A stretch of 64,000 bases of DNA, taken from an uncultured bacterium (GTDB taxonomy: Bacteria > Bacillota_I > Bacilli_A > Erysipelotrichales > Erysipelotrichaceae). The notes under the pieces are model-generated. The model saw only the letters and a program-made list of their open reading frames with translations, was not told the DNA's origin and did not search any database. The translations under genes and the position numbers were made by a program. Location: NCBI GenBank assembly GCA_903847945.1, contig CAINEY010000044.1:1-64000 (forward strand), written 5' to 3'. Positions 22,712 through 47,130 of the stretch are shown one piece after another. Positions within the stretch are counted from its first letter, which is position 1. The number at the start of each line of letters is the position of its first letter.

Positions 22712-22720
22712 GGAGATCCG

Positions 22721-24073
22721 ATGAAAAAAGCGGAACGACTGCAGTTGCTCAGTCAATGGGCCGAGATCGTCAAAGCCACCAATGTCATCCCCCAAGAGCT
22801 TTACGAGAAAAACAACGTCAAACGCGGGTTACGCAATGCGAATGGAACCGGTGTTTTGGTTGGCATTACCCATGTGGGGAGCGTGGTCGGCTACGAAAAA
22901 ATCAATGACGTCAAGATTCCGGTGGAAGGCCAACTCTATTACCGAGGCATCAGCCTATTCGATATCGTCGACGGTTTTCAGCGCGACGGTCGATTGGGCT
23001 TCGAAGAGACCACGTTTCTTTTACTGTTTGGGCATTTACCCAACACGACGGAGTTGGCTGAGTTCAATGAACTTCTGGATGATGCCCGGTCGTTACCGCA
23101 CGGCTACAAAGAAGACGTCATCTTAAAAATTCCCGCCACCAACATCATGAACAAGCTACAACGCACCGTGTTGACGCTTTACTCTTACGATGAAACCCCA
23201 GATGACATCGATACCGCCAATGTCTTGCGTCAATCCATCGATCTCATCGCCAAGCTACCACTCATCGCAGCCTATGCCTATCAAGCTAAACGGCATTATT
23301 TCGATCATGAGAGCCTGGTACTACATACCCCTAAGAAAGGCGTAGGAACAGCCGAGAACTTCCTTCACTTGATTCGACCGGACGGGAAATACACGCGCGA
23401 AGAAGTGGAAATGCTGGATCTGTTGATGGTCATCCAAGCCGAACACGGTGGTGGAAACAATTCCGCCTTTGCGACCCATGTGGTCTCCTCCACAGGCACG
23501 GATACCTATTCGGCCATCGCCACCGCCATCGGTTCCCTCAAAGGACCCAAGCACGGTGGAGCCAACTCCATGGTGGAAGCCATGATCGACGACATCAAAG
23601 CCCATGTTCCGGAGCGTAATGATGATGCCTTGGAAGCGTATCTGCGCAAGATCCTGCGCAAAGAAGCGTTCGACGGGAAAGGATTGATCTATGGCTTAGG
23701 CCATGCGGTCTATACCCTCTCCGATCCGCGCGCCATTCTTCTCAAACAGAAAGCTTCCCAACTGGCCGCCCATAAAGGACAAACCGAAGCGTTTGATTAC
23801 TTGACGGATATCGAACGAATCGGGGTTCGTTGCCTCAGCGAAAAACTGAAGAGCGATAACGCGATGGCTGCCAATGTCGACCTGTACGCCGGGTTTGTCT
23901 TGAAGATGCTGGGAATTCCAGAAGAACTGTATACCCCGGTTTTTGCGATCTCCCGCATTGCCGGTTGGAGCGCTCATCGCTTGGAACAGATCCAAGACGA
24001 GAAGATCATGCGTCCGGCTTATGTCACGATCAAAGACAACACGGACTATGTCCCCCTCAAGGAGCGTCCATGA
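22721..24073 (+). CDS. Citrate synthase
   Basis: Condenses acetyl-CoA with oxaloacetate. The catalytic residues are visible as His242 (AEHGGGNNS), His278 (GPKHGGAN) and Asp387 (NVDLYAG). At 450 residues it belongs to the longer clostridial-type citrate/2-methylcitrate synthase group, with an N-terminal extension before the GVLVGITHVGSVVGYEK segment. An AAGGAGA site is 6 bases from the start, 9 bases after the upstream stop. With aconitase and isocitrate dehydrogenase it completes the oxidative branch to 2-oxoglutarate. Confidence 0.94.
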   Translation: MKKAERLQLLSQWAEIVKATNVIPQELYEKNNVKRGLRNANGTGVLVGITHVGSVVGYEKINDVKIPVEGQLYYRGISLFDIVDGFQRDGRLGFEETTFLLLFGHLPNTTELAEFNELLDDARSLPHGYKEDVILKIPATNIMNKLQRTVLTLYSYDETPDDIDTANVLRQSIDLIAKLPLIAAYAYQAKRHYFDHESLVLHTPKKGVGTAENFLHLIRPDGKYTREEVEMLDLLMVIQAEHGGGNNSAFATHVVSSTGTDTYSAIATAIGSLKGPKHGGANSMVEAMIDDIKAHVPERNDDALEAYLRKILRKEAFDGKGLIYGLGHAVYTLSDPRAILLKQKASQLAAHKGQTEAFDYLTDIERIGVRCLSEKLKSDNAMAANVDLYAGFVLKMLGIPEELYTPVFAISRIAGWSAHRLEQIQDEKIMRPAYVTIKDNTDYVPLKERP

Positions 24074-24738
24074 TCCGCATCGGCATCGCAACCCGTTTAA
24101 CTACTAACGGTAACTATGATGTCCTTCCAGCCTACCTTCACGCCATCGAAGAAGCCGGGGGAACCCCAGTATTGATTCGACCAGAAGACACTACGGAAAC
24201 CTTGTTTTCTACTCTACACGGGATCCTGATTCCCGGAGGAGCGGATGTGGATCCAGCCCTTTACGGACAACCCAATTCCGCCAGTGAAGGCATCGATCCG
24301 GCGACGGATGAACTGGATTTGCGTCTGATTCGTTGGGCGATCGATCATCGTCTACCGCTGCTGGGCATCTGTCGCGGCATCCAAGTGATCAATGTTGCGC
24401 TTGGAGGGTCACTGGTTCAAGACTTACCTTCCCAACGGGATGCTACCATCGATCACAACGTCAAAAACCCGCTGAAGGGTCATCGGGTTCACTTGGATCC
24501 GGAATGTCGATTAGCAGGCATTTTGGGACCTGACCCAGAGGTCAACACCTACCATCACCAAGGCCTCGATCGTTTGGGATCGGGCTTAAAAGCGATCGGT
24601 TGGGCAGATGATGGTCTGATCGAAGCAGTGGAAGGCGATCGGATTCTGGCAGTACAGTGGCATCCGGAACGGATGACTGGTCTTCCTGAAGTTCAAGCCT
24701 TGTTTAAAGACTTCGTTACGTCGTGTTTACCGCAATAA
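24070..24738 (+). CDS. Class I glutamine amidotransferase-like hydrolase (peptidase C26, PuuD-like)
   Basis: A gamma-glutamyl-gamma-aminobutyrate hydrolase family protein. The nucleophile elbow is GICRGIQ and the catalytic His-Glu is WHPE near the C-terminus. IPGGADVDPALYG is typical of the family. The start at 24070 (MIRIGIATR) overlaps the citrate synthase stop as ATGA and has GGAG upstream; the longer frame beginning at 23965 reads through the citrate synthase 3' end. In this operon it may release glutamate from a gamma-glutamyl compound, linking to 2-oxoglutarate metabolism, but the substrate is not shown. Confidence 0.87.
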   Translation: MIRIGIATRLTTNGNYDVLPAYLHAIEEAGGTPVLIRPEDTTETLFSTLHGILIPGGADVDPALYGQPNSASEGIDPATDELDLRLIRWAIDHRLPLLGICRGIQVINVALGGSLVQDLPSQRDATIDHNVKNPLKGHRVHLDPECRLAGILGPDPEVNTYHHQGLDRLGSGLKAIGWADDGLIEAVEGDRILAVQWHPERMTGLPEVQALFKDFVTSCLPQ

Positions 24739-25317
24739 ATCATCGATAATGGGTCGCAATACCGTGACCCATTTTTTATAGCCCAATGGATTTAAATGAA
24801 GCTGGTCTTCCACGAAACATGCCGGATCCGGCGTGTTTTCGATTAAAACCGAAGAAGCCGTATCGACCACCCGGTACCCTTCTCGAAGGGCATAGCGATG
24901 GATCAAGACATTGGCTTGATCGACCAGATGACGAACGTGAGCCCGACTGGGGGTCGGGGTGATGGGTAACACAATACGGACAGTTTGGGGATTCTCCAAG
25001 TGAACCAGTTTCATTAGTTGGGCGATGCTTTCAGCCACATACATTGGAGTGGCCGTGCTTTCATCACCGCACAAATCGTTGGTTCCCGAAAACATCACCA
25101 CGATTTTGGGGTGATAACGATTGATCAAGCGATCGTGATAGGTGATCGCATCGGCAATGCGAGATCCTCCAAAACCGGCCTGAACGACCGTATACGGGGA
25201 AAAATCCCGTTTCAAGGACTCCCACAAGGCGATACTGCTTGAACCTATAAACACCAGATCTGCATTTTTGATGTCCAAATGCCGTCCTTCAATTGCCTCA
25301 ATCTCGTTTTCCCACAT
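24727..25317 (-). CDS. SGNH/GDSL-type esterase
   Basis: A 196-residue SGNH hydrolase. The four blocks are present: GSSSIALWES with the nucleophile Ser, the oxyanion Gly in GFGGSRI, Asn in SGTNDLCG, and the Asp-x-x-His pair in EDQLHLNPLG. No signal peptide or membrane segment is seen, so it is probably cytoplasmic. It has AAGGAG before the ATG. It overlaps the ligase gene upstream by 20 bases and converges with the C26 hydrolase by 12 bases. It probably cleaves an ester or thioester made by its two operon partners; the substrate is unknown. Confidence 0.85.
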   Translation of the reverse strand: MWENEIEAIEGRHLDIKNADLVFIGSSSIALWESLKRDFSPYTVVQAGFGGSRIADAITYHDRLINRYHPKIVVMFSGTNDLCGDESTATPMYVAESIAQLMKLVHLENPQTVRIVLPITPTPSRAHVRHLVDQANVLIHRYALREGYRVVDTASSVLIENTPDPACFVEDQLHLNPLGYKKWVTVLRPIIDDLLR

Positions 25318-26650
25318 CTGATGTCTCCTTCTTGGCGGTGTTCACTTCAAAGCGTTTAAACTTCCTGTTGTCCGCGGGATAGGTCAGGGTGACCAACTCT
25401 AAGCTGATCTTCGCACGTAAATCATACTCGGCTAAGTGTTTCAACAGATCCCGCTTGAGTTGACCCAAAAATCGGTCTTCCACCGCATGCGGTTGCGTAT
25501 CGATCAGCACACGCAATTCTCCGATAGCTGCTTGGATGACCTTGAACTCCCGGATCCGCGCATCGAAGGTGATGATCCAGCGGCTCATCAGATCCGGAAA
25601 GACTGGTCTAAGCTGGCCAAGGTGATTGGTAAACACCATCACGTCATCCTGACGACCAATCACATGGTCGATGGCCCGGAAATGACTTCCGCACGGACAT
25701 CCGTCTTTAAGGACGAGCCAGTCATTCATGCGGTAACGAATCAAGGGTTGAACCCGATTGACCAAGTTAGTGATGATGAGTTGTCCGGGAATGCCCGGTT
25801 GAGTCACCGGATGTCCTAGATCATCCACCAATTCAGCGACCACCAGGTCTTCATTGATGTGTAAGGTTCCGTGAGCGCAAGCACTGGCGATCTGCCCTTC
25901 CGAAGCCTGGTAGATCTCGATGACCCGACAGCCAAACTGCGATTCAAACCGAACCTTGTCTTCTTTCGGCAAGACTTCCGCATAACACACGATGGTTTTA
26001 AGTTGTCCCTTAAATGACGAAGCATGGACCAGCAACAACCTCACGAAACTCGGTGGCGCCATCAACACATTGATGCGCCGTTCCTGGATCTCCCGTTTGA
26101 CCTCATCGATCGGGGTCATCGTCGCTACGTAATGCAGCGATACGCCAGGAGCGTTGATGTCCGCAAAGCCTTGCGAGAAGACCCGTAGACAAAAGAGGAT
26201 GCGAAACGGCAGATCCCGTAAACGTAATCCGCTGCGGGCTAAAAAGACAAACGGTAGGCGTTGAGTCAGGGCCTTGTCGGTCAAGAAGAGTCCTTTGTTT
26301 CCACTGGTTCCACTGGAAAGTCCAACCACGAACCGATCCTGATAATACCCCAGGTAGTCTTTATTGCGTTCTTTCTCCACCGCATACCGCTCAATGTCAT
26401 CCCGTTTGAGCCCTTCCGTGTTGATCCCATCGAAATGAGTCATCAAGGTGGTTTTATCCATGATGGGCAAGGCCCGATAGGCATCCCACGACGATAAGCC
26501 TTCCTTGGGCAGAATGGAGGCGTAATACGGAGATTTCTGAGCCGCATAGCGAATCAGCGCGTTCAGCTCCCGCCATTGGTAATCGCGGATGTCACGCTCA
26601 CTGAAAGCTCGGGTATGCCACTTGAGTTTCAGATAATCCGATAGGCCCAT
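25298..26650 (-). CDS. AMP-forming CoA ligase-like protein (PaaK/CapK family)
   Basis: A 450-residue adenylate-forming enzyme resembling phenylacetate-CoA ligase and coenzyme F390 synthetase. The ATP loop is SSGTSGNKGLF, and YQASEG matches the family's A5-type motif. It ends with the usual small domain (GRQDDVMVF, then DNRKFKRF). A short Cys-containing turn (CPCGSH) lies before GRQDD. It starts inside the stop of the membrane acyltransferase gene (TAATG) and overlaps the esterase gene. It likely activates a carboxylic acid; the acid is unknown. Confidence 0.82.
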   Translation of the reverse strand: MGLSDYLKLKWHTRAFSERDIRDYQWRELNALIRYAAQKSPYYASILPKEGLSSWDAYRALPIMDKTTLMTHFDGINTEGLKRDDIERYAVEKERNKDYLGYYQDRFVVGLSSGTSGNKGLFLTDKALTQRLPFVFLARSGLRLRDLPFRILFCLRVFSQGFADINAPGVSLHYVATMTPIDEVKREIQERRINVLMAPPSFVRLLLVHASSFKGQLKTIVCYAEVLPKEDKVRFESQFGCRVIEIYQASEGQIASACAHGTLHINEDLVVAELVDDLGHPVTQPGIPGQLIITNLVNRVQPLIRYRMNDWLVLKDGCPCGSHFRAIDHVIGRQDDVMVFTNHLGQLRPVFPDLMSRWIITFDARIREFKVIQAAIGELRVLIDTQPHAVEDRFLGQLKRDLLKHLAEYDLRAKISLELVTLTYPADNRKFKRFEVNTAKKETSDVGKRD

Positions 26651-27864
26651 TAACGTTCCAGTTTCGCTTTCTTGGTGCTGGGAGCAAAACGTGCCAACCA
26701 GTGACTGAGCAGATACTCGATCCCATATTTATAATGTGCTTTTTCCCACAGGATTAGTCCACTCCCCCATCCCAAGGCCAGAATGAAGCCATAGCCCAAA
26801 GCCATGGGAATATCCAGGGTGATGGAGAGTCCAGCTCCGCGCAGAATCGCCATGATGGCAGCACTGACTACGGATTCCACGAAGAACACTGTCAGACCTC
26901 CTTTGGAGAAACGACTGAAGAAACGAGCCACCTTACCGGGTTTTCGAGGTTTGACGTCGAAGAAACGGATCATCCCGGAAATCAGGAGTACGAACAAACC
27001 GATCTGAGCCATCATGATCGCAAACCACACCGGATCGATCTGACGTTGCAGCATCGTTTCGGGTAGGACGATGTAGGCTGTGATTCCAATCACAAACAAG
27101 ATGCCACCTACGATTGCGGTCTTCATCGAGAACCGCCGATCCTGATCGATCAACAGGTATGCCATCCACATTCCAAATAACGCAAAAGCCAGATATGGTA
27201 AGACCGGATTGTTCTTATTGACGATCCAGTTCAGGGCTATAATCACCGGCCAGTTCATCGCATCCCTGGCTTCCAGATACACGTTATAAAGTGGGATTCG
27301 AATCAACGACAGCGCAAAGAAGCCGATTCCACCAAAGAGACTGATATTGGCTTTGACTTTAGGGCTTTGGATCTTGCGGTACGCCAGCACCAATAGTCCC
27401 ACCAAGAGTACATTCATGGCAATCATCACCAAAGAGTCGATGTAGAGAAAACGATCCAAGCTGGGCAGAATCAGGGTTCCAGTGTTGATCCAGTGCACCA
27501 GGATACTTTCATCCATGCTGCGTAAAGCCATGTTGACGATCCCGGGACCGGTCACATTGAAATACGCATAGGCAATGACCATCATGCCTACGAAATAAGC
27601 CACCACATACCTCAACACCTGTTTGGGGGGAAGTTTCTGTTCGTGGAGTTTCCGTTCGTGTTGCAGCGTATGAACAAGTCCGCTGATCATGGCAAACAGT
27701 CCGGCAAACATCAACAAAAAGCCGATTAGGGTCACAATTAACGGCGGATTATCCAAATCCAAATCATACAAGCCGGAGAAATGATAAAACGCGGTATGCA
27801 TCGTCACCAGCACAAACAAGCCGAATCCACGCAAGACATCCAGTCCCTGGTATTCACGGTTCAT
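26650..27864 (-). CDS. Multi-pass membrane acyltransferase-like protein (DUF1624/DUF418 type)
   Basis: A 404-residue membrane protein with about ten hydrophobic segments. The opening REYQGLDVLRGFGLFVLVTMHTAFYHFSG resembles the heparan-alpha-glucosaminide N-acetyltransferase and OpgC/DUF418 families, which move acyl groups across or onto membrane-facing acceptors; the exact family is uncertain. It is the first gene of a three-gene operon with a CoA ligase-like enzyme and an SGNH esterase. The promoter is an extended -10 (TGC-TACAAT, 27885-27893), and the leader has AGAGGACC before the ATG. The transferred group and acceptor are unknown. Confidence 0.75.
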   Translation of the reverse strand: MNREYQGLDVLRGFGLFVLVTMHTAFYHFSGLYDLDLDNPPLIVTLIGFLLMFAGLFAMISGLVHTLQHERKLHEQKLPPKQVLRYVVAYFVGMMVIAYAYFNVTGPGIVNMALRSMDESILVHWINTGTLILPSLDRFLYIDSLVMIAMNVLLVGLLVLAYRKIQSPKVKANISLFGGIGFFALSLIRIPLYNVYLEARDAMNWPVIIALNWIVNKNNPVLPYLAFALFGMWMAYLLIDQDRRFSMKTAIVGGILFVIGITAYIVLPETMLQRQIDPVWFAIMMAQIGLFVLLISGMIRFFDVKPRKPGKVARFFSRFSKGGLTVFFVESVVSAAIMAILRGAGLSITLDIPMALGYGFILALGWGSGLILWEKAHYKYGIEYLLSHWLARFAPSTKKAKLER

Positions 27865-30125: not shown

Positions 30126-30407
30126 TTATTTTTCGCTAGACAAAACAAGCTTGTATCCGCCGGGTCCATACTGGATGCACCGGTTGACCCGCGAGATCGT
30201 TGCGGAGCTCATGCCGGTCTGTTTTTCGATTTGTTCGTAGGTGATGCCCTGGATCAGTAATCGGGCCACTTCAAGTCGATCGGCCATATCCTGCACTTCC
30301 TTGATGGTGCACAGATCGTCAAAGAAGGCGTAACACTCGTCTTTGGTTTTTAAGGATAGAATTGCGTCAAAGAGCGCATCATGCGCTGAATCGTGCTTTA
30401 GAGCCAT
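30126..30407 (-). CDS. YerC/YecD-type TrpR-family DNA-binding protein
   Basis: A 93-residue all-helical protein of the Trp repressor superfamily as found in Gram-positives. The segment LCTIKEVQDMADRLEVARLLIQGITYEQIEKQTGMSSATISRVNRC contains a helix-turn-helix (YEQIEKQTGMSSATISRV). It is encoded just upstream of the amino-acid ABC transporter, with its own promoter. A 4-base-spaced inverted repeat in its promoter resembles the transporter operator, so it may repress itself and the transporter; that link is inference. AAGGAG precedes the ATG. Confidence 0.88.
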   Translation of the reverse strand: MALKHDSAHDALFDAILSLKTKDECYAFFDDLCTIKEVQDMADRLEVARLLIQGITYEQIEKQTGMSSATISRVNRCIQYGPGGYKLVLSSEK

Positions 30408-30434: not shown

Positions 30435-30463
30435 ATTCTATCACTTCATAAGAGTAAAGTAAA
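30435..30463 (-). promoter_or_regulatory. Promoter of the yerC-like gene with a second operator-like repeat
   Basis: TTTACT (30458-30463) and TAGAAT (30435-30440) on the minus strand, 17 bases apart. Inside lies ACTTTAC-N4-ATGAAGT (30443-30460), identical in one half-site and 5 of 7 in the other to the repeat before the ABC transporter. The -35 is carved from the T run of the upstream operon's terminator. Confidence 0.65.
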
Positions 30464-30487
30464 AAAACACCGGAAGTTCCGGTGTTA
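30461..30487 (-). terminator. Intrinsic terminator of the branched-chain fermentation operon
   Basis: AACACCGGAA pairs with TTCCGGTGTT and a run of seven T follows on the minus strand. The TAA stop of the last oxidoreductase gene forms part of the stem. Confidence 0.88.
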
Positions 30488-31021
30488 TTGGTGATAGGCT
30501 TTGGTGAAGGCAGCCTTGTTGAGGGCGTTGAGATCCGGGGCTTTGGCTCCGAATTTCTCTTCGATGATGGCTAATCCGTCGTTCTCTTCAAAGATGGGCA
30601 GCTTAGCGACCACTGTTCCTAGGGCAGCCATGTTTTGAACTTTGAGGTTACCGACTTCTTGGGCAATCGCTGTGAAGTCGACGCTGTTGATCGTGATGCC
30701 CTTGGGGACCGCATCGGTCTTGACCATGGAGGCATTCGCAATCAACGTCCCTTTAGGATTCATGTGGGGCAGAAACTTGGTCAGCGAGGGCTGATTCATC
30801 GCCAGCAAGACATCGATCCCGTCGGTGATGATCGGGGAAGCAATCGGATCCTTATCGATGACGACGTGGCAATTGGCCGTTCCACCGCGCATCTCCGGTC
30901 CATACGAAGGCATCCAACTGACTTGGTACCCCTTCTTCATGGCCATCATGGCCACCAGTTGACCCATGGAAAGTACACCTTGTCCGCCGAATCCGGCACA
31001 GACGATTTTGAGGGCACTCAT
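30485..31021 (-). CDS. vorC: 2-oxoisovalerate:ferredoxin oxidoreductase, gamma subunit
   Basis: The 178-residue gamma subunit of a four-subunit 2-oxoacid:ferredoxin oxidoreductase. It opens with CAGFGGQGVLSMGQLVA and has PSYGPEMRGGTANC, both hallmarks of gamma domains that help bind CoA. It is the last gene of the operon, overlapping the beta subunit gene by 4 bases, with its stop inside the terminator. The operon context (leucine dehydrogenase, Ptb, Buk) and the VorB-type alpha subunit favour branched-chain 2-oxoacids. Confidence 0.9.
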   Translation of the reverse strand: MSALKIVCAGFGGQGVLSMGQLVAMMAMKKGYQVSWMPSYGPEMRGGTANCHVVIDKDPIASPIITDGIDVLLAMNQPSLTKFLPHMNPKGTLIANASMVKTDAVPKGITINSVDFTAIAQEVGNLKVQNMAALGTVVAKLPIFEENDGLAIIEEKFGAKAPDLNALNKAAFTKAYHQ

Positions 31022-31764
31022 GACTGGACCCCTTTGTCTTTGAAGTTACCCAAGGGATAGTATGGCACCATCTTGTCCTTGATGAATTTCAAAGAATCCA
31101 CCGGTGAGAGTCCCCAACCGATGTTGCAGGAGGAGAGCACCTCCACCATGGAGAATCCGCCGTTGCGCAACTGCACTTCGAAAGCTTTCTTGATGGCCGT
31201 CTTGGCTTTACGGATCGTCAAGGGATCGACGACGGTAACCCGTTCCACGAAGGCAGCCCCCGGAATGGTCGCAATCATTTCGCTGATGCGAATGGGTTCC
31301 CCTTGGAGGTGGGTATCACGGCCATATGGCGACGTGGTGGTCACTTGTCCAGGTAAAGTAGTCGGAGCCATCTGGCCGCCGGTCATTCCGTAAATGGCGT
31401 TGTTGACGAAGATCACGGTGATGTTTTCCCCGCGATGTGCCGCTTGAACGATTTCCCCGGTGCCGATGGAAGCGAGGTCGCCATCGCCTTGATAGGTGAA
31501 GACGATGGAATCCGGACGAACGCGTTTGACGCCGGTGGCGACCGCTGGAGCCCGACCATGCGCAGCTTGAACGGCATCGCAATTGAAGAATTCATAGCTC
31601 ATGACGGAACAACCCACCGAGGCAATCAGGACACTGCGGTCGATGATGTTGAGTTCTTCCAACACTTCCGCCACTAAGCGGTGAATGATGCCGTGGGTAC
31701 AGCCCGGGCAGTAGGTAAAGGGGGTATCGGTCAACCCTTTGGTTTTCTTGAAGATGACGCTCAT
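31018..31764 (-). CDS. vorA: 2-oxoisovalerate:ferredoxin oxidoreductase, beta (thiamine-PP) subunit
   Basis: Binds thiamine pyrophosphate and an iron-sulfur cluster. YCPGCTHGIIHR near the N-terminus carries two cluster cysteines, Cys in ASVGCSV is the next, and the TPP motif is GDGDLASIGTGE ending NNAIYGMTGGQ. The start MSVIFKKTK at 31764 follows the alpha subunit stop by one base and has AAAGGGGA before it; the ATG at 31797 lies in the alpha subunit frame overlap. The length is 248 residues, normal for these beta subunits. Confidence 0.92.
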   Translation of the reverse strand: MSVIFKKTKGLTDTPFTYCPGCTHGIIHRLVAEVLEELNIIDRSVLIASVGCSVMSYEFFNCDAVQAAHGRAPAVATGVKRVRPDSIVFTYQGDGDLASIGTGEIVQAAHRGENITVIFVNNAIYGMTGGQMAPTTLPGQVTTTSPYGRDTHLQGEPIRISEMIATIPGAAFVERVTVVDPLTIRKAKTAIKKAFEVQLRNGGFSMVEVLSSCNIGWGLSPVDSLKFIKDKMVPYYPLGNFKDKGVQS

Positions 31765-31765
31765 G

Positions 31766-32821
31766 TCAGTCCCCTTTCCGATGCGATTTGACCGCATCGA
31801 CGATTTCGGAGGGTTCGAAGATCACCCCGCCGGTCCGTCCATAGAAATGGACCGGAACGGTACCTTCGATCGCCAGTTTCACATCCACCAGCATTTGTCC
31901 GAGTGAGAGTTCAGCGACCAAGACAAATTGCTTGCCTTGAGCTGCCGCTTTGAGTTGTTTGGACGGGAACGGCAAGAGGGTTTTCGGACGGAAGAGTCCG
32001 GCCTTGATGCCTTGTTCGCGTAAAGTGGCGATTGCTGATTTCACGATGCGGGATGGCGTTCCATACGCCACCAGCAAGACGTCCGCATCGTCCGTCTGCA
32101 CCGTTTCATACATGACGTCTTCGCGTTCCATGCGTTCGTATTTGGCTTGTAGATCGCGGTTATGTTGCTCGAGCTTGTAGGCATCCAGATTCATGGAGTT
32201 GACGACATTGCGTTGAGCCCGGCCGCGTTGCCCTTCGGCAGCCCAGGGACGATCCACCGGGGGTAAAGGTTCCGGATTGATCTCAACCGGTTCCATCATC
32301 TGTCCGATGATGCCGTCCGCCATGACCATGACCGGATTACGGTACTTCTCAGCCAGTTCAAAAGCTTTACGAACCAGTTCCGTGGCTTCCTGAACTCCGT
32401 TAGGAGCCAGCACCATGACTTTGTAGTCCCCGTTACCGCCACCGCGGGTAGCTTGATTGTAGTCAGCCTGGGACGGTAAGATCCCGCCAAGTCCTGGGCC
32501 TCCACGCGAGACGGACACAATGACAACGGGCAGTTCCGCCCCGGCACAGTACGAAATGCCTTCCTGTTTGAGAGCAATGCCCGGGGAAGAGGAAGACGTC
32601 ATGACGCGCGCTCCGGCTCCAGCCGCTCCATAAACCATGTTGATGGCGGCTAGTTCGCTTTCAGCTTGAACGAAGACGCCGTTATTTTTAGCCAAGTATT
32701 TGGCCATGTATTCGATCAGTTCGTTTTGCGGGGTGATGGGATAACCGAAGAACGCTTCACATCCGGCGGAAACCGCCGCTTGGGCAATCGCTTCATTGCC
32801 TTTCATCAAGATCTTGGCCAT
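31766..32821 (-). CDS. vorB: 2-oxoisovalerate:ferredoxin oxidoreductase, alpha subunit
   Basis: The 351-residue alpha subunit with the pyrimidine-binding GYPITPQNELIEYM motif and Glu in AESELAAINMVYGAAGAGAR. SSSSPGIALKQEGISY and GGPGLGGILPSQADYNQATRGGG match the family called VorB. It also has the C-terminal transketolase-like domain (VLLVAYGTPSRIVKSAI). It begins right after the ferredoxin gene. The complex would turn a branched 2-oxoacid, CoA and oxidised ferredoxin into acyl-CoA, CO2 and reduced ferredoxin. Pyruvate or 2-oxoglutarate cannot be excluded on sequence alone. Confidence 0.92.
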   Translation of the reverse strand: MAKILMKGNEAIAQAAVSAGCEAFFGYPITPQNELIEYMAKYLAKNNGVFVQAESELAAINMVYGAAGAGARVMTSSSSPGIALKQEGISYCAGAELPVVIVSVSRGGPGLGGILPSQADYNQATRGGGNGDYKVMVLAPNGVQEATELVRKAFELAEKYRNPVMVMADGIIGQMMEPVEINPEPLPPVDRPWAAEGQRGRAQRNVVNSMNLDAYKLEQHNRDLQAKYERMEREDVMYETVQTDDADVLLVAYGTPSRIVKSAIATLREQGIKAGLFRPKTLLPFPSKQLKAAAQGKQFVLVAELSLGQMLVDVKLAIEGTVPVHFYGRTGGVIFEPSEIVDAVKSHRKGD

Positions 32822-32822
32822 C

Positions 32823-33044
32823 TTAGCTTTCCAACCTTTCCACCGTAATCACAACATCCGGACAAATGAGCGCACAACTGCTGCACGCGATGCATTTTTC
32901 CGGTTCAAAACAGAAAGCGGGGGTGTACCCGATGGCGTTGACCCGGGACGTATCCAGTTTGAGGATCTTGACCGGACACACGGAGACACACAGGCCACAG
33001 CCTTTGCACGTGTCTTCGTTAAAACTGACTCTGCCTTTGATCAT
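32823..33044 (-). CDS. vorD: 2-oxoacid oxidoreductase delta subunit, two-[4Fe-4S] ferredoxin
   Basis: A 73-residue ferredoxin with two full cluster motifs: CKGCGLCVSVCP and CIACSSCALICP. Such small subunits pass electrons from the thiamine site to free ferredoxin. It overlaps the P-loop protein gene upstream by 4 bases (ATGA) and precedes the alpha subunit gene. Confidence 0.93.
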   Translation of the reverse strand: MIKGRVSFNEDTCKGCGLCVSVCPVKILKLDTSRVNAIGYTPAFCFEPEKCIACSSCALICPDVVITVERLES

Positions 33045-33694
33045 AACGTGGTTCCTTTCATCCAGTCGCTGCGTAAGATCAAACGATCAAACACCAGGAT
33101 CGGATTGGCAAACTGCTCAGGGTGAAGATCCAAACGGGCATCCACCATCGTCATGACGATGGGAAGTCCCAAGCGCTGTGCCTCTTTCTCAAGCGTTGCT
33201 TGCGCATTCAGGATCATGGGAGGATCGGTGAGATCCAGAAGGTGGGTGTTGTGCACCAGACCGGTAATGGTCAAGGCACTGCGGGATTCAAAGAGGTCGA
33301 TCATTGGTTCGATCTGATCGAAGAAGGATTCGGGGCGATTGGCGTTGACGACCAACCAAACCTCCGAGCCTTCCAGCACATCCATGAAGGTCGCTAACGG
33401 CTTCAGACCGTTTTCACTGCCGGCACAATCGATGATCAGGGGCAGTCCTTTGGCAATCACCCCACGGATGTCCCCGCTGAAGGCGGGAAGATCCTGGTTG
33501 ACGTGATGTTTGATCATCGATCCGACGATGGTCACGCCTTGGGTGGCCAACCAGTCGGTTTCTTCCCGAGGGCGAAAGTACGGGTTGATAATGTCGAAGT
33601 CCGCTAAAACGCAGGGGGCGTGTTGAAGCGCCCATTGCGTGGCGAATTCGCTTTTACCGACGCCGTAAGCCCCGGTGATGATGATGGGCTTCAT
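33041..33694 (-). CDS. Uncharacterised P-loop NTPase in the branched-chain fermentation operon
   Basis: A 217-residue soluble protein with Walker A GAYGVGKS at residues 8-15. It continues with ADFDIINPYFRPRE, reminiscent of MinD/CobB-type NTPases, and IDCAGSENGL, which may be the Walker B/DxxG region. The rest shows no known catalytic motif. Both ends overlap neighbours by 4 bases, between leucine dehydrogenase and the ferredoxin subunit, so it is made in step with the complex. A role in assembling or regulating the oxidoreductase is a guess. I do not recognise a named gene. Confidence 0.8.
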   Translation of the reverse strand: MKPIIITGAYGVGKSEFATQWALQHAPCVLADFDIINPYFRPREETDWLATQGVTIVGSMIKHHVNQDLPAFSGDIRGVIAKGLPLIIDCAGSENGLKPLATFMDVLEGSEVWLVVNANRPESFFDQIEPMIDLFESRSALTITGLVHNTHLLDLTDPPMILNAQATLEKEAQRLGLPIVMTMVDARLDLHPEQFANPILVFDRLILRSDWMKGTTL

Positions 33695-34770
33695 TTGCCG
33701 ACGTAGATGCTGTTGATGTTGCGCATCATTTCGATGCGGCGTTCGGCCATGCGATCCGCAACCAGGTAGGTCGGGACATTGGTGTCTTTAGATTCACGGA
33801 TAATTTCACGGATACGGTCGTAGATGGCATCAATGGCATGAATCGAGGAATCGCGATTATAACCGATGCGTTCCTGATAGACGTTGATGAGACCACCGGC
33901 ATTGATAACGTAGTCCGGCGCGTAGACGATGCCGCGTTCGTGCAACATGACGCCGTGCTTGTTGCTGTCTTCGAGTTGATTGTTGGCACTGCCGGCCACG
34001 ATCTTGGCTTTTAAACGTGGGATCGTGTTGTCATTGAGGATGGCTCCCAAAGCACACGGAGCAAACACATCGACATCCAAGTCATAGATGGCATTGGGTT
34101 CGACAATGATGGCACCGGTCTTGGCACTGACTTCGGCCAAGGCGTCCTGATCGATGTCAGAGATCCACAGTTTAGCGCCTTCAGCCGCCAACATCTCCGC
34201 CAGCGAGGCTCCGACATGGCCGACTCCGGAAATGGCCACTTTGACCCCTTCCAGTTTGGATGATCCGAGTTCTTCTTTGACACAAGCCTTGATGCCTTTG
34301 ATGACCCCGTGTGCCGTAAACGGCGAAGGATCCCCGGACGTTTCAGGTAAGCCCAGTACAGAATCGGTTTCCTGACGGACTAGGGTCATATCGAAGGGGG
34401 TGGTACCCACGTCTTCGGCGGTGATGTAACGCCCGCCCAAGGTTTCCACGTAACGTCCGTACGCGCGCCAGAAGGCTTCGCGTTTGACGGTGTCTTTGCG
34501 TAAGTTCTTTGAATTCCCGATCAAAACGGCTTTTCCGCCACCCAAGTTCAAGCCGGCACACGCGGCTTTCTTGGTCATCCCGCGCGCTAAGCGCAGGCAA
34601 TCCAACGCTGCGTCTTCTTCATTCTCATACTCCCAGATGCGGGTTCCGCCCAATGCTGGACCCAGGGTAGTGTTGTGAATGCAGATGAAACCGCGAAGGC
34701 CGGAGTTACGGTCGTATAAATAGACGAGCTGTTCGTAACCGTACTTCTCCATGTACTCAAATTTATTCAT
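33691..34770 (-). CDS. Leucine/valine dehydrogenase
   Basis: NAD-dependent deaminating dehydrogenase of branched amino acids, 359 residues. The catalytic lysines lie in LARGMTKKAACAGLNLGGGKAV, with GTRIWEYENEEDA before it and the Rossmann motif SGVGHVGASLAEML. TAEDVGTT and PCALGAILN are typical of leucine dehydrogenase. It supplies 2-oxoacids to the Vor complex below it. A separate promoter with a cre-like site precedes it, and its ribosome site is AAGGAG. Phenylalanine dehydrogenase is the nearest alternative. Confidence 0.92.
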   Translation of the reverse strand: MNKFEYMEKYGYEQLVYLYDRNSGLRGFICIHNTTLGPALGGTRIWEYENEEDAALDCLRLARGMTKKAACAGLNLGGGKAVLIGNSKNLRKDTVKREAFWRAYGRYVETLGGRYITAEDVGTTPFDMTLVRQETDSVLGLPETSGDPSPFTAHGVIKGIKACVKEELGSSKLEGVKVAISGVGHVGASLAEMLAAEGAKLWISDIDQDALAEVSAKTGAIIVEPNAIYDLDVDVFAPCALGAILNDNTIPRLKAKIVAGSANNQLEDSNKHGVMLHERGIVYAPDYVINAGGLINVYQERIGYNRDSSIHAIDAIYDRIREIIRESKDTNVPTYLVADRMAERRIEMMRNINSIYVGK

Positions 34771-34861
34771 GGTTCTCCTTAGTTAACGAGGTGAGACCCT
34801 CGTTCTGTCCCTTTTATCTTACCAAAACACCTTTAAAAATGAAAGCGTTTTCAGGAAAATT
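34771..34861 (-). promoter_or_regulatory. Internal promoter, cre-like site and leader hairpin before leucine dehydrogenase
   Basis: A perfect match to the CcpA cre consensus, TGAAAGCGTTTTCA, lies at 34840-34853. On the minus strand TTTCAT overlaps its edge and is followed 17 bases later by an extended -10, TGG-TAAGAT. Further on, AACGAGG (34785-34791) and CCTCGTT (34798-34804) form a 7-bp hairpin in the leader just before AAGGAG. A CcpA-type repressor there would block the promoter when sugar is present. Confidence 0.72.
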
Positions 34862-35923
34862 CTAGTAGGTCTGGAGTTTTTCCTCACCACGCAGGTAGCG
34901 TAACGCACCCCGAGCCAAAGCGCCTAACTCGTCTTCTCCGGGATAGACACTGATCCCTGCGATCCAATCCACTTTCGAACGCAACCGATCGATCAACGAC
35001 GCATCGTACGCCAGTCCGCCGGTAATCAAGATCTGATCGACATGACCTTCCAAAACGGTCGCCATGGCACCGATCTCTTTAGCAATCTGATAAATCATGG
35101 CATCCACGGCCAGGTTGACCTCAGGATCGGTTTGTGCGCGCATCATGATGTCGCGCATGTCATTGGAGCCCACTAAAGACACCATGCCGCCCTTACCGAC
35201 CAGTACACGTTGAACGACTTTGGGATCGTTTCCGTATTCCGCCATCACCCGATACATCACCCGGGATGGTAAAGCTCCCGAACGTTCCGGTGACAGTGGC
35301 CCTTCCCCATCCAAAGGATTATTGACATCAATGACCCGACCAAGGTGATGGGCGCCAATGGAGATTCCCCCACCCAGATGAGCCACGATCAGATTCAACT
35401 CGTCAACGGATTTATGGATCGAAGCGGCATACTGCCGGGCAATCTCTTTCTGATTGAGCGCATGAAAGCCGCTGCGGCGCTGAAAGCCTTTAAGACCGAC
35501 AACTCTCGCCACGTCCTGAAACTCATCCGTCATCGGGGCATTCACGAACACCACATCCAAGCCGGTTTCTTTAGCCCACCGGTAGCCGATGCACATGCCG
35601 ACGTTACTGATGTGGGATCCGTGGATCTCCGCATGGACTTCGTTATAAATCTGTTCGGTGATTTTATAAATGCCGCCTTGGATGGGTTTGACGATTCCTC
35701 CGCGCACCACCAAGAGATCCATATCAGAGACCTTGATGTTGATGGAGGACAACCACCCTTCAATGAGTCCCTTACGGAACTCCATTTGATCCATGATCAT
35801 CGGGTAGGGTGCCAACTCGGCACTGGTGTGACGCAGAGTTTGAGAGGACGTTACAGTGTCATCGTGATAAAGAGCCACCTTGGTGGAGGTGGAACCCAGG
35901 TTGAGTACGAGCAGTTTAGCCAT
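34862..35923 (-). CDS. buk: Butyrate kinase
   Basis: Makes ATP and a free short-chain acid from acyl phosphate. ASKHA-family motifs: LVLNLGSTSTKVALY at the N-terminus, VAHLGGGISIGAH in the middle and TGGLAYD near the C-terminus. The 353 residues match butyrate kinase rather than the ~400-residue acetate kinase. It overlaps ptb by 8 bases. In this operon it probably acts on isobutyryl, isovaleryl and 2-methylbutyryl phosphates. Confidence 0.95.
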   Translation of the reverse strand: MAKLLVLNLGSTSTKVALYHDDTVTSSQTLRHTSAELAPYPMIMDQMEFRKGLIEGWLSSINIKVSDMDLLVVRGGIVKPIQGGIYKITEQIYNEVHAEIHGSHISNVGMCIGYRWAKETGLDVVFVNAPMTDEFQDVARVVGLKGFQRRSGFHALNQKEIARQYAASIHKSVDELNLIVAHLGGGISIGAHHLGRVIDVNNPLDGEGPLSPERSGALPSRVMYRVMAEYGNDPKVVQRVLVGKGGMVSLVGSNDMRDIMMRAQTDPEVNLAVDAMIYQIAKEIGAMATVLEGHVDQILITGGLAYDASLIDRLRSKVDWIAGISVYPGEDELGALARGALRYLRGEEKLQTY

Positions 35924-36827
35924 GCGTTTTCTCCTGCGTCATCAAGACGGCCAAGGCAATCGAGTTCAGTTTAGCCTCATCATCGTCCGCCCGGGAGGTC
36001 AACACGATGGGGGCTTGAGCTCCGCTGATCACACAGGCCACGGTTCCCTTCGCTAAGAACGTCATAGCTTTATACAGGATGTTTCCAGCTTCGATGTTGG
36101 GCATGAGCAGCACATCAGCGCGTCCGGCATTGACGTTCGTAATGCCTTTATGATGGGCGGCTTCGATGCTGATGGCATTATCCATCGCAAACGGTCCATC
36201 CACGTCACACCCGACGATCTCCCCGGCTTTGGCCATGTCGCTCAAGGCTTGAGCATCCAGGGTTGCCTGCATTTTCGGATTCACCTTTTCCACGGCACAG
36301 ACGACAGCGACTTTAGGATGACTGAGTCCGAGAGCCCGAGTGACCGGCAAGACGTTTTCGATGATTTGTTTCTTAGCCATAAGCTCAGGTGCGATATTCA
36401 TAGCCCCATCCGACATGAAGAAGAGGCGTTCATGATCGGGCACGGTAAAGACCGTCACGTGCGACAAGAGATGATCGGTGCGTAAGCCCCAATCTTTGTT
36501 GAGGACGGCTTTGAGGAGCACACTGGTATCCACCAAACCTTTCATCAACAAGTCCGCTTTTCCGCTGGACACCAGTTTGACAGCCGTTTCACAGGCCAAC
36601 ACCGGATCGGGTTCATGGATGAGGGTCGATCCATGGAGGTCGAGTCCATGGATTCCGGCAACCTTGCGAATCTCTTCCTCGTGACCAACCAGAATGGCGT
36701 CCACCAGGTTGAGTTTCATGGCTTGGGTCACGGCAGACAGCACTTCGGCATCTTCGGCGACGGCAACGGCCAACACGGCTTTCTTCGAAGACTGAATGCG
36801 GGATACGATCAAGTGTCTGAGGTTCAT
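35916..36827 (-). CDS. ptb: Phosphate butyryltransferase
   Basis: Exchanges CoA for phosphate on short acyl-CoAs. 303 residues in the phosphate acetyl/butyryl-transferase family, with DILLKAVLNKDW-like LLKAVLNKDWGLR, SHVTVFTVPDHERLFFMSDGAMNIAP, and the C-terminal NIEAGNILYKAMTFLAKG and SGAQAPIVLTSRADD. It follows the DUF308-papain-like gene after 9 bases with GGAGCGCT as ribosome site. With Buk it gives one ATP per branched acyl-CoA from the Vor complex. Confidence 0.94.
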   Translation of the reverse strand: MNLRHLIVSRIQSSKKAVLAVAVAEDAEVLSAVTQAMKLNLVDAILVGHEEEIRKVAGIHGLDLHGSTLIHEPDPVLACETAVKLVSSGKADLLMKGLVDTSVLLKAVLNKDWGLRTDHLLSHVTVFTVPDHERLFFMSDGAMNIAPELMAKKQIIENVLPVTRALGLSHPKVAVVCAVEKVNPKMQATLDAQALSDMAKAGEIVGCDVDGPFAMDNAISIEAAHHKGITNVNAGRADVLLMPNIEAGNILYKAMTFLAKGTVACVISGAQAPIVLTSRADDDEAKLNSIALAVLMTQEKTHG

Positions 36828-36836
36828 AGCGCTCCT

Positions 36837-38075
36837 TTAGTAGGTCCGTCGTTGGACGATGGTTTGAGTTTGAAGGCGGTAAGCAGTGTTCATGAGGGTA
36901 AAATACATGCCGGGGGTCAACACCGGAGTCAGTCGGATCATGGCTACCCGGCGATCCTTGATCAGGGATTCCACCATGGTGACGCAGTTGATGCTGACGG
37001 CGAAGTAAGTTCTGAATAAGCCGGAGGTAAACTTGAGTAAGCGGGCTCCCGTGGCTTTTTGAAGGCGGTCGATATAGATCGGCGAAGTGGGATCACTGGA
37101 CACCGGTTGCCACGGCTCACTGCGCGCCAACAAGCGATTCAACCGGGTTTCAAAGGCACTGAGGGTGTCAGGACCCGGTTCGATCACATAGCCCACCATG
37201 CGTTTGTGTTCGCTGTTGAGGCAGAACTCCAGATAAGGCTGAGCCTTGGCGATAATGAAGACTCCGTCACCGAATCCGTTGAGGATGCGGCGTTTAAGCG
37301 GATCGTGGGCTCCATAACTGTAGACGACGCCGCGATGAATCAGATCGACATGGCCAATTGCATCGGCTCCAGCCCGTTTCATGTGGAAGAGGATTTCAAA
37401 CTGATGATCCTCCAACGGCTTTAACGTACTTTCGGGGATCGGCGATTGGGCTTCCACCGAAGCGAAGATCTGTTGGGGAACGAACAAGGACAGAAACAAG
37501 GGCATCGGGGACGAAATGATGTGGGAAACGACTCCTTTCAGCCGATGTTGGAAAGCGGCCAAGAGTCCCCCGGTCAAGGTGACACTACCCAAATACAAGG
37601 CATAGATCCCCGCCACGGTCATCAACCGCAAATACCCCGGAAGCGGATCCACCAACAGAATGAGGGCAAAACTCAACGTGATCAACGCATCCGCCATGGC
37701 CAGCCATCGGGGTCGAATGTGATCCATCCGATACGCCAACCAGCTGAGAAACTTGGAGATGGCCCGTAGTACAGCCCATACCCCATAGAGAATCGGAATC
37801 AAGACTTCCAGAATGATCGGTAATCGCCAGCTCAGGATCGCCAGCCCCAACAACACAAATCCCATCCATCCGGATTGACGCGAGGAGGAAGGGCCACTGA
37901 ATCGTTGAAGCAGGGTCAAAACACTGAGCCCCAATAGACCCAACGTATTGAAAAGGACGGCCCACTGACCGACCCGTTGCGGGTCCATGACAGCCAACAC
38001 CCCTAAGCCCATCAACACCAGACCGGAAATGATCAAGGTGGAAGCATGGAGTTGTTGTCGCCAGAAGCGGTTCAT
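36837..38075 (-). CDS. DUF308-like membrane protein with C-terminal permuted papain-like domain
   Basis: 412 residues. Roughly residues 12-175 hold six or seven membrane segments in a repeat typical of HdeD/DUF308 proteins, and another hydrophobic stretch runs from about 183 to 205. The C-terminal soluble half has AIGHVDLIHRGVVYSYG (His242) and, much later, VSINCVTMVES (Cys364). A His before a Cys, in that spacing and with these contexts, fits the permuted papain-like (YiiX/LRAT/DUF4105) fold, which cleaves or transfers acyl or peptide groups; this is inference. It heads the ptb-buk-vor operon. TTGTTT-17-TATACT stands 6 bases before the ATG, with no ribosome site. Confidence 0.72.
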   Translation of the reverse strand: MNRFWRQQLHASTLIISGLVLMGLGVLAVMDPQRVGQWAVLFNTLGLLGLSVLTLLQRFSGPSSSRQSGWMGFVLLGLAILSWRLPIILEVLIPILYGVWAVLRAISKFLSWLAYRMDHIRPRWLAMADALITLSFALILLVDPLPGYLRLMTVAGIYALYLGSVTLTGGLLAAFQHRLKGVVSHIISSPMPLFLSLFVPQQIFASVEAQSPIPESTLKPLEDHQFEILFHMKRAGADAIGHVDLIHRGVVYSYGAHDPLKRRILNGFGDGVFIIAKAQPYLEFCLNSEHKRMVGYVIEPGPDTLSAFETRLNRLLARSEPWQPVSSDPTSPIYIDRLQKATGARLLKFTSGLFRTYFAVSINCVTMVESLIKDRRVAMIRLTPVLTPGMYFTLMNTAYRLQTQTIVQRRTY

Positions 38076-44590: not shown

Positions 44591-45448
44591 TTAACCGGCT
44601 TTGGCGTCCACCAAGGCTTGAACCTTGGTCAGATCCCGCGTACGTCGATAGAACGGGGTCAGATCGCCCTGATAGAACGGATGACGGCTGGTGTAGGGTT
44701 GAGATTCGGACTGATACAGAATCCCGCACGCCAAACGATCTTCATCCAAGGCCAAGGCCATGGCATTGAGTTTGTTGGAGCGGTCATGGGTTTCATCCAG
44801 CCAGAAGGTATGTTGTTTGTACCAGGCAAAGGTGTTGATCTTGTTGTAGGTTACACACGGATGGAAGATGTCGATGATGGCGTAGCCATCATGACGCAGG
44901 GCGGCTTTGATCAGTTCTTTGGTTCTTTCCTGATCGCCGCTGAAACCGCGGGCGACAAAGGTTGCCCCCATCGCAATGGCCAAGGCCATCGGGTTGATGG
45001 GTTGGTTGTAGACCCCTTCCGATTGGACGGGAGTCACCAGCCCGATCGGTGAGGTCGGAGAAGCCTGGCCTTTGGTCAAGCCATAAACCATGTTGTTGTG
45101 GACGATGTGGATGAGTTTGGGGTTACGACGGATGTTGTGGATGAGGTGATTGCCCCCTTCCCCATACATGTCCCCATCTCCGCCTTCAGCCACCACCGTC
45201 AAGGACGGATTGACCGCGCTGATGGCACTGGCCACCGCTAAACCACGACCGTGCAAGCCGTTGAAGTAGTTGGTATCCAAGTATTGCGGCATTTTGGCCG
45301 CTTGTCCGATCCCGGATGAGAACACGACTTGAGTCGGATCAAGGTTCATTTCCTGCAAGGCACTGATCAAAAGTTTACGCAACGGGAAGTTTCCGCATCC
45401 CGGGCACCATGCCATATCAATGTCGTGATTGAAGTCGAAGTGAGCCAT
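44591..45448 (-). CDS. korB: 2-oxoacid:ferredoxin oxidoreductase beta subunit (KorB-type)
   Basis: 285 residues. WCPGCGNFPLRKLL carries the cluster cysteines, and the thiamine-PP motif is GDGDMYGEGGNHLIHNIRRN ending HNNMVYGLTKGQASPTS. This is the beta subunit of the two-subunit (alpha-gamma fusion plus beta) type, usually specific for 2-oxoglutarate. The ATG overlaps the korA stop. With citrate synthase, aconitase and isocitrate dehydrogenase at 19776-24073 it could extend the path to succinyl-CoA. Pyruvate cannot be ruled out as substrate. Confidence 0.9.
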   Translation of the reverse strand: MAHFDFNHDIDMAWCPGCGNFPLRKLLISALQEMNLDPTQVVFSSGIGQAAKMPQYLDTNYFNGLHGRGLAVASAISAVNPSLTVVAEGGDGDMYGEGGNHLIHNIRRNPKLIHIVHNNMVYGLTKGQASPTSPIGLVTPVQSEGVYNQPINPMALAIAMGATFVARGFSGDQERTKELIKAALRHDGYAIIDIFHPCVTYNKINTFAWYKQHTFWLDETHDRSNKLNAMALALDEDRLACGILYQSESQPYTSRHPFYQGDLTPFYRRTRDLTKVQALVDAKAG

Positions 45449-47130
45449 TAGTTTGCCTCCAAAAGGGTTTCCAGTTCATCCACGTAGAAAGGTTCTCCCG
45501 TGGACTTGTTGATGCGACGGGTCACTTTGATCCCGTAGGTTTGTTGAATGAGGTTGGCCAGTTGACCCGTGGCGTTGTTTTCGATCACGGTAATGGATTT
45601 GGCTTTAGCCAAGGCCGACTCGAGATGCTTGGGCAAGGGGAACACTTGAATGAAGTGCCAATGCGTCCAGGACTTCTCCGGATGCGAATCGACCACTTCC
45701 TTGACAATCCCATACGTCGAACCCCAGCTGATCAACAGGTCTTCCCCGCGATTCGAACCGCCTTGGATCGGATCCAACTGATCCGCCTTAAGCAGATTGA
45801 GCTTGTTGAGGCGCTTCTGGTTCATGGCTTGACGAACGGTGAAGGATTCGGTGATGGTGCCGTCTTCATGGTGTTCGTCGGAGTCGACTTTCACCAAGCC
45901 TTTGCCGTAACCCGGAATACCCCGCGGTGAGATGCCGGAGGGATCCAGCTTGTAACGCAGATAATCTTCCTCGGTTTTGACGATGTTGAGGTTAGCGTAG
46001 TTTGTCGGAACGGTAATGGGTTCATGTTGGGTGATGGACTCCAGCCAGTACTGGTCGGAAAGCACGAACGCCGGAATTTGATATTTATCGGCCAGATGGA
46101 AGGCTCTGGCCATGAGTTCAACCCCATCTTCAATGCGGGCCGGAGCGAAAATCACGCGCGGGAATTCCCCGTGACCGGCATACAAGGCCAGATTGAGATC
46201 GCCCTGTTCGGTACGGGTCGGTAAACCAGTAGCCGGACCGGGACGCTGGGCGATATGGATGACGGCTGGTGATTCAGTGATCCCAGCCAAACTGACCGCT
46301 TCGGTCATCAAGGCAAAACCGCCCCCGGAAGTCGTGGTTAACGCACGGGCACCTGCATACCAGGCTCCGATCACCATGTTGAGGGCTGCAATCTCGTCTT
46401 CGGCATGTTCGACCAAGACGCCAAAATCCCGGCTCTGGTCTTCCAATAAGGTCATCAAGGTGGTTCCCGGCGACATCGGATAGGCCGCAACATAATTGAC
46501 GCCACCGGCCAAGGCACCGATCGAAAGGGCCTCATTGCCGGTCATGATGGGTTTGCGGGTAAAGTCCTTCGGCATCACCAGATTCGGTTTATCCGGATCG
46601 GCACTGCCGACCGCATACCCCAAATCAAAGGCAGCCAGGTTACCGTCCACCACCGCTTCACCGCGTTTGGCGAAGCGCTTGGTGATGAGGGCTTTGGCAT
46701 TGGCGGTGTTGACCGATAAGAGACCTGCGATGTAGCCAAACATCGCCGTATTCTCATACAAGCGGTTGCCGGCTTGTTTGGCCATGTCGATAAACGGTAC
46801 CGCTTTAGTGGTGTGACCGTTGAGATCGGAAGCCGCCAAGAAGTTGGCTTCGCCGATAATGACGGTCTTGTCGGTCAAGCGCGGACGCAAACGATCGACC
46901 GCGTGATCATTGAATAAAAACAAGTAATCGATGGTGTAACGAAGCGCAAAAACCGGGTGATTGGACACTCGGATCTCCACGGAGTTGTTTCCGCCGCGGA
47001 CTCGGCTCATGACTTCTTTGGAGGAGAAAACGTAGGTCTCCTGAGTTAAGGCTTCGACGAGGAACTCTTCAACGGTTTGAAGACCCTGTCCCGCCTCACC
47101 AGAAAGCACAAGGGTAATGGAATCGTGCAT
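45448..47130 (-). CDS. korA: 2-oxoacid:ferredoxin oxidoreductase alpha subunit with fused gamma domain (KorA-type)
   Basis: 560 residues. The first 190 are a gamma domain (SGEAGQGLQTVEEFLVEAL, MSRVRGGNNSVEIRVS). The rest is the alpha domain with AAYPMSPGTTLMTLLEDQSRD and VEHAEDEIAALNMVIGAWYAGARALTTTSGGGF, written here only as landmarks of the pyrimidine-binding region. The gamma-alpha fusion distinguishes it from the separate-subunit Vor complex. AAGGAG precedes the ATG, and a TATAAT lies at 47190-47195 on the minus strand with a weak -35. Confidence 0.9.
   Translation of the reverse strand: MHDSITLVLSGEAGQGLQTVEEFLVEALTQETYVFSSKEVMSRVRGGNNSVEIRVSNHPVFALRYTIDYLFLFNDHAVDRLRPRLTDKTVIIGEANFLAASDLNGHTTKAVPFIDMAKQAGNRLYENTAMFGYIAGLLSVNTANAKALITKRFAKRGEAVVDGNLAAFDLGYAVGSADPDKPNLVMPKDFTRKPIMTGNEALSIGALAGGVNYVAAYPMSPGTTLMTLLEDQSRDFGVLVEHAEDEIAALNMVIGAWYAGARALTTTSGGGFALMTEAVSLAGITESPAVIHIAQRPGPATGLPTRTEQGDLNLALYAGHGEFPRVIFAPARIEDGVELMARAFHLADKYQIPAFVLSDQYWLESITQHEPITVPTNYANLNIVKTEEDYLRYKLDPSGISPRGIPGYGKGLVKVDSDEHHEDGTITESFTVRQAMNQKRLNKLNLLKADQLDPIQGGSNRGEDLLISWGSTYGIVKEVVDSHPEKSWTHWHFIQVFPLPKHLESALAKAKSITVIENNATGQLANLIQQTYGIKVTRRINKSTGEPFYVDELETLLEAN

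Follow-up and report, generated by a model that had tools for sequence, protein, structure and literature searches.

VOR, a ferredoxin-linked 2-oxo acid oxidoreductase, makes up together with a phosphotransacylase and an acyl kinase the oxidative Stickland route already known from C. difficile and C. sporogenes, in which protein is turned into branched short-chain acids and also provides ATP and low-potential electrons. Kinases encoded beside VOR in these two species prefer isobutyrate, isovalerate, and propionate (PMC13285125), and the VOR of I. bartlettii prefers branched 2-oxo acids (PMC13290082). A related gene block is described here from an uncultured member of the Erysipelotrichaceae, within a stretch of 64,000 nucleotides (hereafter, the window; contig CAINEY010000044.1). 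It encodes the same four-subunit Vor as the three species above (PMC13285125, PMC13290082), with phosphotransacylase (ptb) and kinase (buk) genes nearby, as in the C. difficile and C. sporogenes clusters. Leucine dehydrogenase (leuDH) is built into the window cluster, whereas the C. difficile loci gave no match to it. The block most likely serves the oxidative, Stickland-type fermentation of branched-chain amino acids. It also includes a gene for a P-loop nucleoside triphosphatase (NTPase) of no described function within a much-discussed gut pathway, and this gene is present in the same kind of block in C. difficile (loci L102 and L104).

The HpdDEFG-HpdJ-HpdK system of C. scatologenes follows the same logic of ferredoxin oxidoreductase, phosphotransacylase, and kinase; unlike the activity proposed for the window, it acts on hydroxyphenylpyruvate from tyrosine (PMC13285125). 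Thermoanaerobacter wiegelii has nearly the same parts list as the window (locus L130, buk-ptb-leuDH-buk-P-loop-vorDBAC-ptb), but differs in the order of ptb, buk, and leuDH and in its extra copies of buk and ptb. In Bacillus, the bkd operon joins ptb, leucine dehydrogenase, and buk to an acyl-CoA-forming 2-oxo acid enzyme, the NAD- and lipoate-dependent Bkd. The window shares the first three genes and has the ferredoxin enzyme where Bacillus has Bkd, as a preliminary description of this DNA had proposed. No lipoyl E2 acyltransferase (PF00198) was found in the window genome, which was searched one gene family at a time (a 1.53-Mb assembly, 79% complete, which limits all absences stated for it), so the genome appears to lack Bkd. 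As a novelty the replacement does not hold: the same block is found from Thermoanaerobacter to Spirochaetota, and experiments on C. difficile, C. sporogenes, and I. bartlettii have described the route (PMC13285125, PMC13290082). The pathway is already known from anaerobes of the gut and of the environment, and it reaches far past the few clostridia studied for it. The set of leuDH, P-loop gene, vorDBAC, ptb, and buk, which the same description had suggested looking for in other genomes, recurs in tens of them, and the gene order is therefore not a matter of chance. All nine genes of the window block lie on the minus strand, in the order and at the positions first described:

36837-38075, minus strand: DUF308 gene, with a DUF308 membrane domain and a possible permuted-papain domain
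35916-36827, minus strand: ptb, phosphate (branched) acyltransferase, from its NF004472 and TIGR02706 scores
34862-35923, minus strand: buk, acyl kinase of the butyrate kinase family (TIGR02707)
34771-34861, minus strand: buk-leuDH gap, with a palindrome like a catabolite-responsive element (cre) at 34839-34853, a -10-like TAAGAT, a leader hairpin, and a Shine-Dalgarno sequence
33691-34770, minus strand: leuDH, leucine (branched-chain amino acid) dehydrogenase, from its best PDB matches
33041-33694, minus strand: P-loop NTPase of SIMIBI fold with no described function, from an AlphaFold 2 (AF2) model, Foldseek, and adjacency to vorD
32823-33044, minus strand: vorD, ferredoxin-like subunit with two 4Fe-4S motifs (eight invariant Cys)
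31766-32821, minus strand: vorB, large subunit with a thiamine pyrophosphate (TPP) domain (NF005507)
31018-31761, minus strand: vorA, TPP/Mg-binding subunit with one 4Fe-4S cluster (GDGD..NN, four invariant Cys)
30485-31021, minus strand: vorC, gamma subunit (PF01558, 137 bits)
30460-30490, minus strand: intrinsic terminator 3' of vorC, a 9-bp stem followed by seven T at 30486-30466

The P-loop protein has no match in Pfam, NCBIfam, or the PDB sequences. Its motifs GxxGxGK[ST]E, DxD[IV][IV]NPYFR, DxGGxxxG, an N..R pair, and NN[ST] are invariant or nearly so, and its AF2 model is good (pLDDT 90). Foldseek matched the model to Ffh (E 5.6e-07) and also to FtsY and HypB, with TM values of 0.5-0.6. 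A viral fold search gave no match below E 0.001. As the model resembles GTPases of the signal recognition particle type and the ATPase HypB, the protein is placed in the SIMIBI class: it combines a Rossmann-like fold, a Walker A motif, and the structural match, and no named family fits it. An ATP-driven electron carrier of the NifH/HgdC type (archerase) was considered as well and rejected, since no Cys is conserved (best column 15%). A text search of the main papers on 2-oxo acid:ferredoxin oxidoreductases (OFORs) found no mention of the gene, and the literature search yielded nothing useful on the protein together with VOR or on the exact cluster.

Among 245 genomes of the phylum scanned for a close VorB and the P-loop protein, a close VorB is encoded in 30, and the P-loop protein in 16 of those 30; in none of the 245 does the P-loop protein occur without Vor. 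A collection-wide scan with an alignment as query (the single window protein retrieved none) gave at least 579 relatives, of which the best 80 were kept. In the phylum sample and relatives, all 22 loci have the P-loop gene directly 5' of vorD, as do 69 of the 80 further loci, although the latter count favors Vor-linked cases, since the best 80 of 579 were chosen by their similarity to a Vor-linked query. Matches to ptb and/or buk were present in the fetched stretch of 39 of these 80 loci, and a leucine dehydrogenase match in eight. Carriers include Clostridioides, Peptostreptococcus, Alkaliphilus, Thermoanaerobacter, Spirochaetaceae, and a Calditrichales genome. At least two of the 11 loci in which the gene is not 5' of vorD are cut by a contig end, and 10 of the 11 genomes encode a VorB-like protein elsewhere (nine close ones, and one, in G299, only 39% identical). 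One genome (G255) has two Vor loci (L029 and L034), each with its own diverged P-loop gene.

This distribution bears on whether the P-loop protein is a mere passenger with no functional tie to Vor. Against a Vor-related role, 14 of the 30 sampled Vor genomes do without the gene. In favor of a passenger, P-loop-less genomes sit at two places of the VorB tree, one of them nested among carriers, so at least two losses occurred in lineages that retained Vor, and the gene is not indispensable. Its mirror-tree correlation, moreover, is no higher than that of buk and does not separate it from the linked genes. Nevertheless, its position directly 5' of vorD across phyla, the VorB-like proteins encoded in nearly all genomes where it lies apart from vorD, and the separate copies kept by both Vor loci of G255 make a passenger unlikely. 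The most likely role that we infer for the protein is that of an NTP-dependent Vor accessory, useful though dispensable, which may act in assembly, cluster loading, or activity control. More tentatively, and with slightly less than even confidence, it could be a dedicated accessory, NTP-dependent and not described before, that serves VOR-type enzymes as a maturase, an activator, or an energy-state switch; conserved in Bacillota, Spirochaetota, Calditrichota, Zixiibacteriota, and further phyla, it would link the nucleotide state of the cell to amino acid oxidation. Two further arrangements were seen: in same-class Vor loci without the P-loop gene (L078-L091), leuDH abuts vorD directly in most cases, and in a clostridial genome (L139, 7672-9675) the P-loop protein shares one frame with a folylpolyglutamate-synthase-like protein, by fusion or read-through.

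The family identities of ptb, buk, leuDH, and the Vor subunits are backed by NCBIfam, Pfam, and PDB sequences. VorB reaches 529 bits with the NF005507 VorB model (cut-off 399). In VorA the thiamine motif GDGD..NN is conserved, and C18, C21, C51, and C212 are invariant in 96/96 sequences, as are all eight cluster Cys of VorD in 107/107. The enzyme hence has the make-up of a four-subunit VOR (a TPP subunit with its motif and one cluster, and a delta subunit with two clusters), and its catalytic parts look intact. Buk, the sole close copy in the genome, scores 402 bits with TIGR02707 (cut-off 289). Ptb just reaches NF004472 (399.1 bits, cut-off 399) and stays below the cut-offs of two other models, among them TIGR02706 (382.9 bits, cut-off 410.5). 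The best PDB matches of LeuDH are leucine dehydrogenases (430 bits), followed by tryptophan (353) and phenylalanine dehydrogenase (172); it is nearer to leucine dehydrogenases than to phenylalanine, tryptophan, or glutamate dehydrogenases.

Two further OFORs are encoded in the genome: a PFOR-like gene on another contig, with a POR domain in an open frame of 1180 codons, and a two-subunit KOR-type 2-oxoacid oxidoreductase within the window (44591-47130). Vor is the third, and as the pyruvate and 2-oxoglutarate roles appear to be covered, it would not be needed for either. The window also encodes a set of citrate synthase, aconitase, and isocitrate dehydrogenase (19776-24073), which together with the KOR-type enzyme makes up an oxidative route to 2-oxoglutarate.

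In the proposed pathway, leucine dehydrogenase would act on Leu, Val, or Ile, releasing the amino group and producing the 2-oxo acid and NADH; VorABCD would convert the 2-oxo acid and CoA to branched acyl-CoA and CO2 with reduction of ferredoxin; Ptb would form the acyl phosphate; and Buk would transfer its phosphate group to ADP, so that one ATP is formed along with isovalerate, isobutyrate, or 2-methylbutyrate. From leucine dehydrogenase and Vor, NADH and reduced ferredoxin would arise 1:1, a ratio that would fit a bifurcating-type hydrogenase; both could feed an NADH-type [FeFe] hydrogenase, or ferredoxin could feed Rnf. The hydrogen formation or Rnf-type outlet suggested earlier is matched by genes for a group A6 NADH-type [FeFe] hydrogenase with a NuoF-like partner (C49) and by an Rnf locus (C33) that encodes RnfC, D, and G; a further locus (C21) bears NqrF.

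Fermentation of branched-chain amino acids, as first described, is the best reading of the locus; Vor is predicted to prefer branched 2-oxo acids, a preference to which the family has exceptions. Several points weigh against the reading. The genome is incomplete; the VOR of C. sporogenes is broad, with strong activity on pyruvate and substantial activity on phenylpyruvate, and B. hydrogenotrophica has two VOR-like enzymes with a preference for aromatics (PMC13290082). In LeuDH, the pocket position of NAGGLINV is Leu, where the compared leucine dehydrogenases have Val; many Vor-linked relatives share the Leu, and others have Val. This Leu, the existence of VOR-like enzymes that prefer aromatics, and the placement of HpdDEFG in the VOR cluster of a similarity network would suit a Vor that, with its partners, is not mainly devoted to branched amino acids but serves aromatic ones (through phenylpyruvate or hydroxyphenylpyruvate) or a broad set. 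That is improbable, however, given the distance of LeuDH from phenylalanine dehydrogenases (172 bits against 430), its retained Ala in ITAED, and a kinase that passes the curated butyrate kinase cut-off. The VOR reaction is reversible, as Heider reportedly described in 1996, and a Buk-Ptb pair is able to activate acids, so that the module might instead fix CO2 onto branched acyl-CoA from external isobutyrate or isovalerate, to form branched-chain amino acids or to supply acyl-CoA primers for branched lipids; from the catabolite-type cre site and the deaminating dehydrogenase we infer the catabolic direction, and the reverse one is unlikely.

The cre-like site lies in the 91-bp gap between buk and leuDH, which the preliminary description passed over when it reported overlaps or tiny gaps throughout. 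At the other junctions such spacing is indeed found: 9 bp between the DUF308 gene and ptb, an 8-bp overlap of ptb and buk, 4-bp overlaps of leuDH with the P-loop gene, of the latter with vorD, and of vorA with vorC, and gaps of 1 bp (vorD/vorB) and 4 bp (vorB/vorA). Within the gap, TGAAAACGCTTTCA is the sole strict cre match in the 64-kb window; as about 1.4 would be expected by chance, this count is weak evidence by itself. The position of the palindrome is kept in relatives, as a strict match in L029-L032 and as TGAAAGGGCTTTCA in L026-L028, with a TATAAT-like box downstream. Across 34 loci with leuDH (three of them near-copies), 10 strict sites fall in the 8.4 kb upstream of leuDH versus 12 in the 494 kb elsewhere. 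With this conserved palindrome and a -10-like box in the gap before it, leuDH-P-loop-vorDBAC is probably a separate catabolite-repressed unit; it would start at its own promoter and, since this carries the cre site, would be off when sugar is plentiful. A single operon, as initially claimed, is accordingly doubtful, and ptb-buk may be read from a promoter of its own. In favor of such control, the genome encodes a CcpA-like LacI protein and, as a fragment at a contig edge, an HPr kinase (HprK); against it, the CcpA-like protein scores below the curated cut-off. The literature search found nothing useful on CcpA control of bkd. The cre-like site suggests how such bacteria shift from sugar to amino acid use.

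A hairpin (34771-34812, AACGAGG..CCTCGTT) stands directly before the leuDH Shine-Dalgarno sequence, and L026 and L027 have one of other sequence at the same place (GAAGCC..GGCTTC); the folding z-scores of these leader hairpins are weak (-0.6 to -1.75, the window gap having -1.75). The terminator claimed after vorC is real and strong: stem and T-run are in place, the folding energy is -12.9 kcal/mol (z -4.7), and no shuffled sequence equalled it. A YerC/TrpR-like regulator follows just past it (30126-30407) and is kept there in L026-L028.

At the other end of the block, the DUF308 gene reaches the Pfam DUF308 threshold only just (25.1 vs 25 bits) and has no other Pfam domain; its AF2 model is poor. 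The DUF308 half of the original DUF308-papain-like label therefore stands at threshold, while the papain-like half comes from a conserved order of His and then Asn-Cys, seen by eye in three relatives. As the gene lies 5' of ptb only in some members of the genus, it is probably not a core part of the cluster. In the VorB tree, the sequences of the genus fall among 41 mainly clostridial rows (99/99), apart from a 30-row set (100/100) that holds most other sequences of the same class. This placement, and the lack of the P-loop gene in most of the window's family, suggest a possible lateral gain from a clostridial source. Elsewhere in the window (24727-27864), a GDSL lipase, an F390-synthetase/phenylacetate-CoA-ligase-like protein, and a membrane acyltransferase-like protein are encoded in a synteny that is conserved within the genus.

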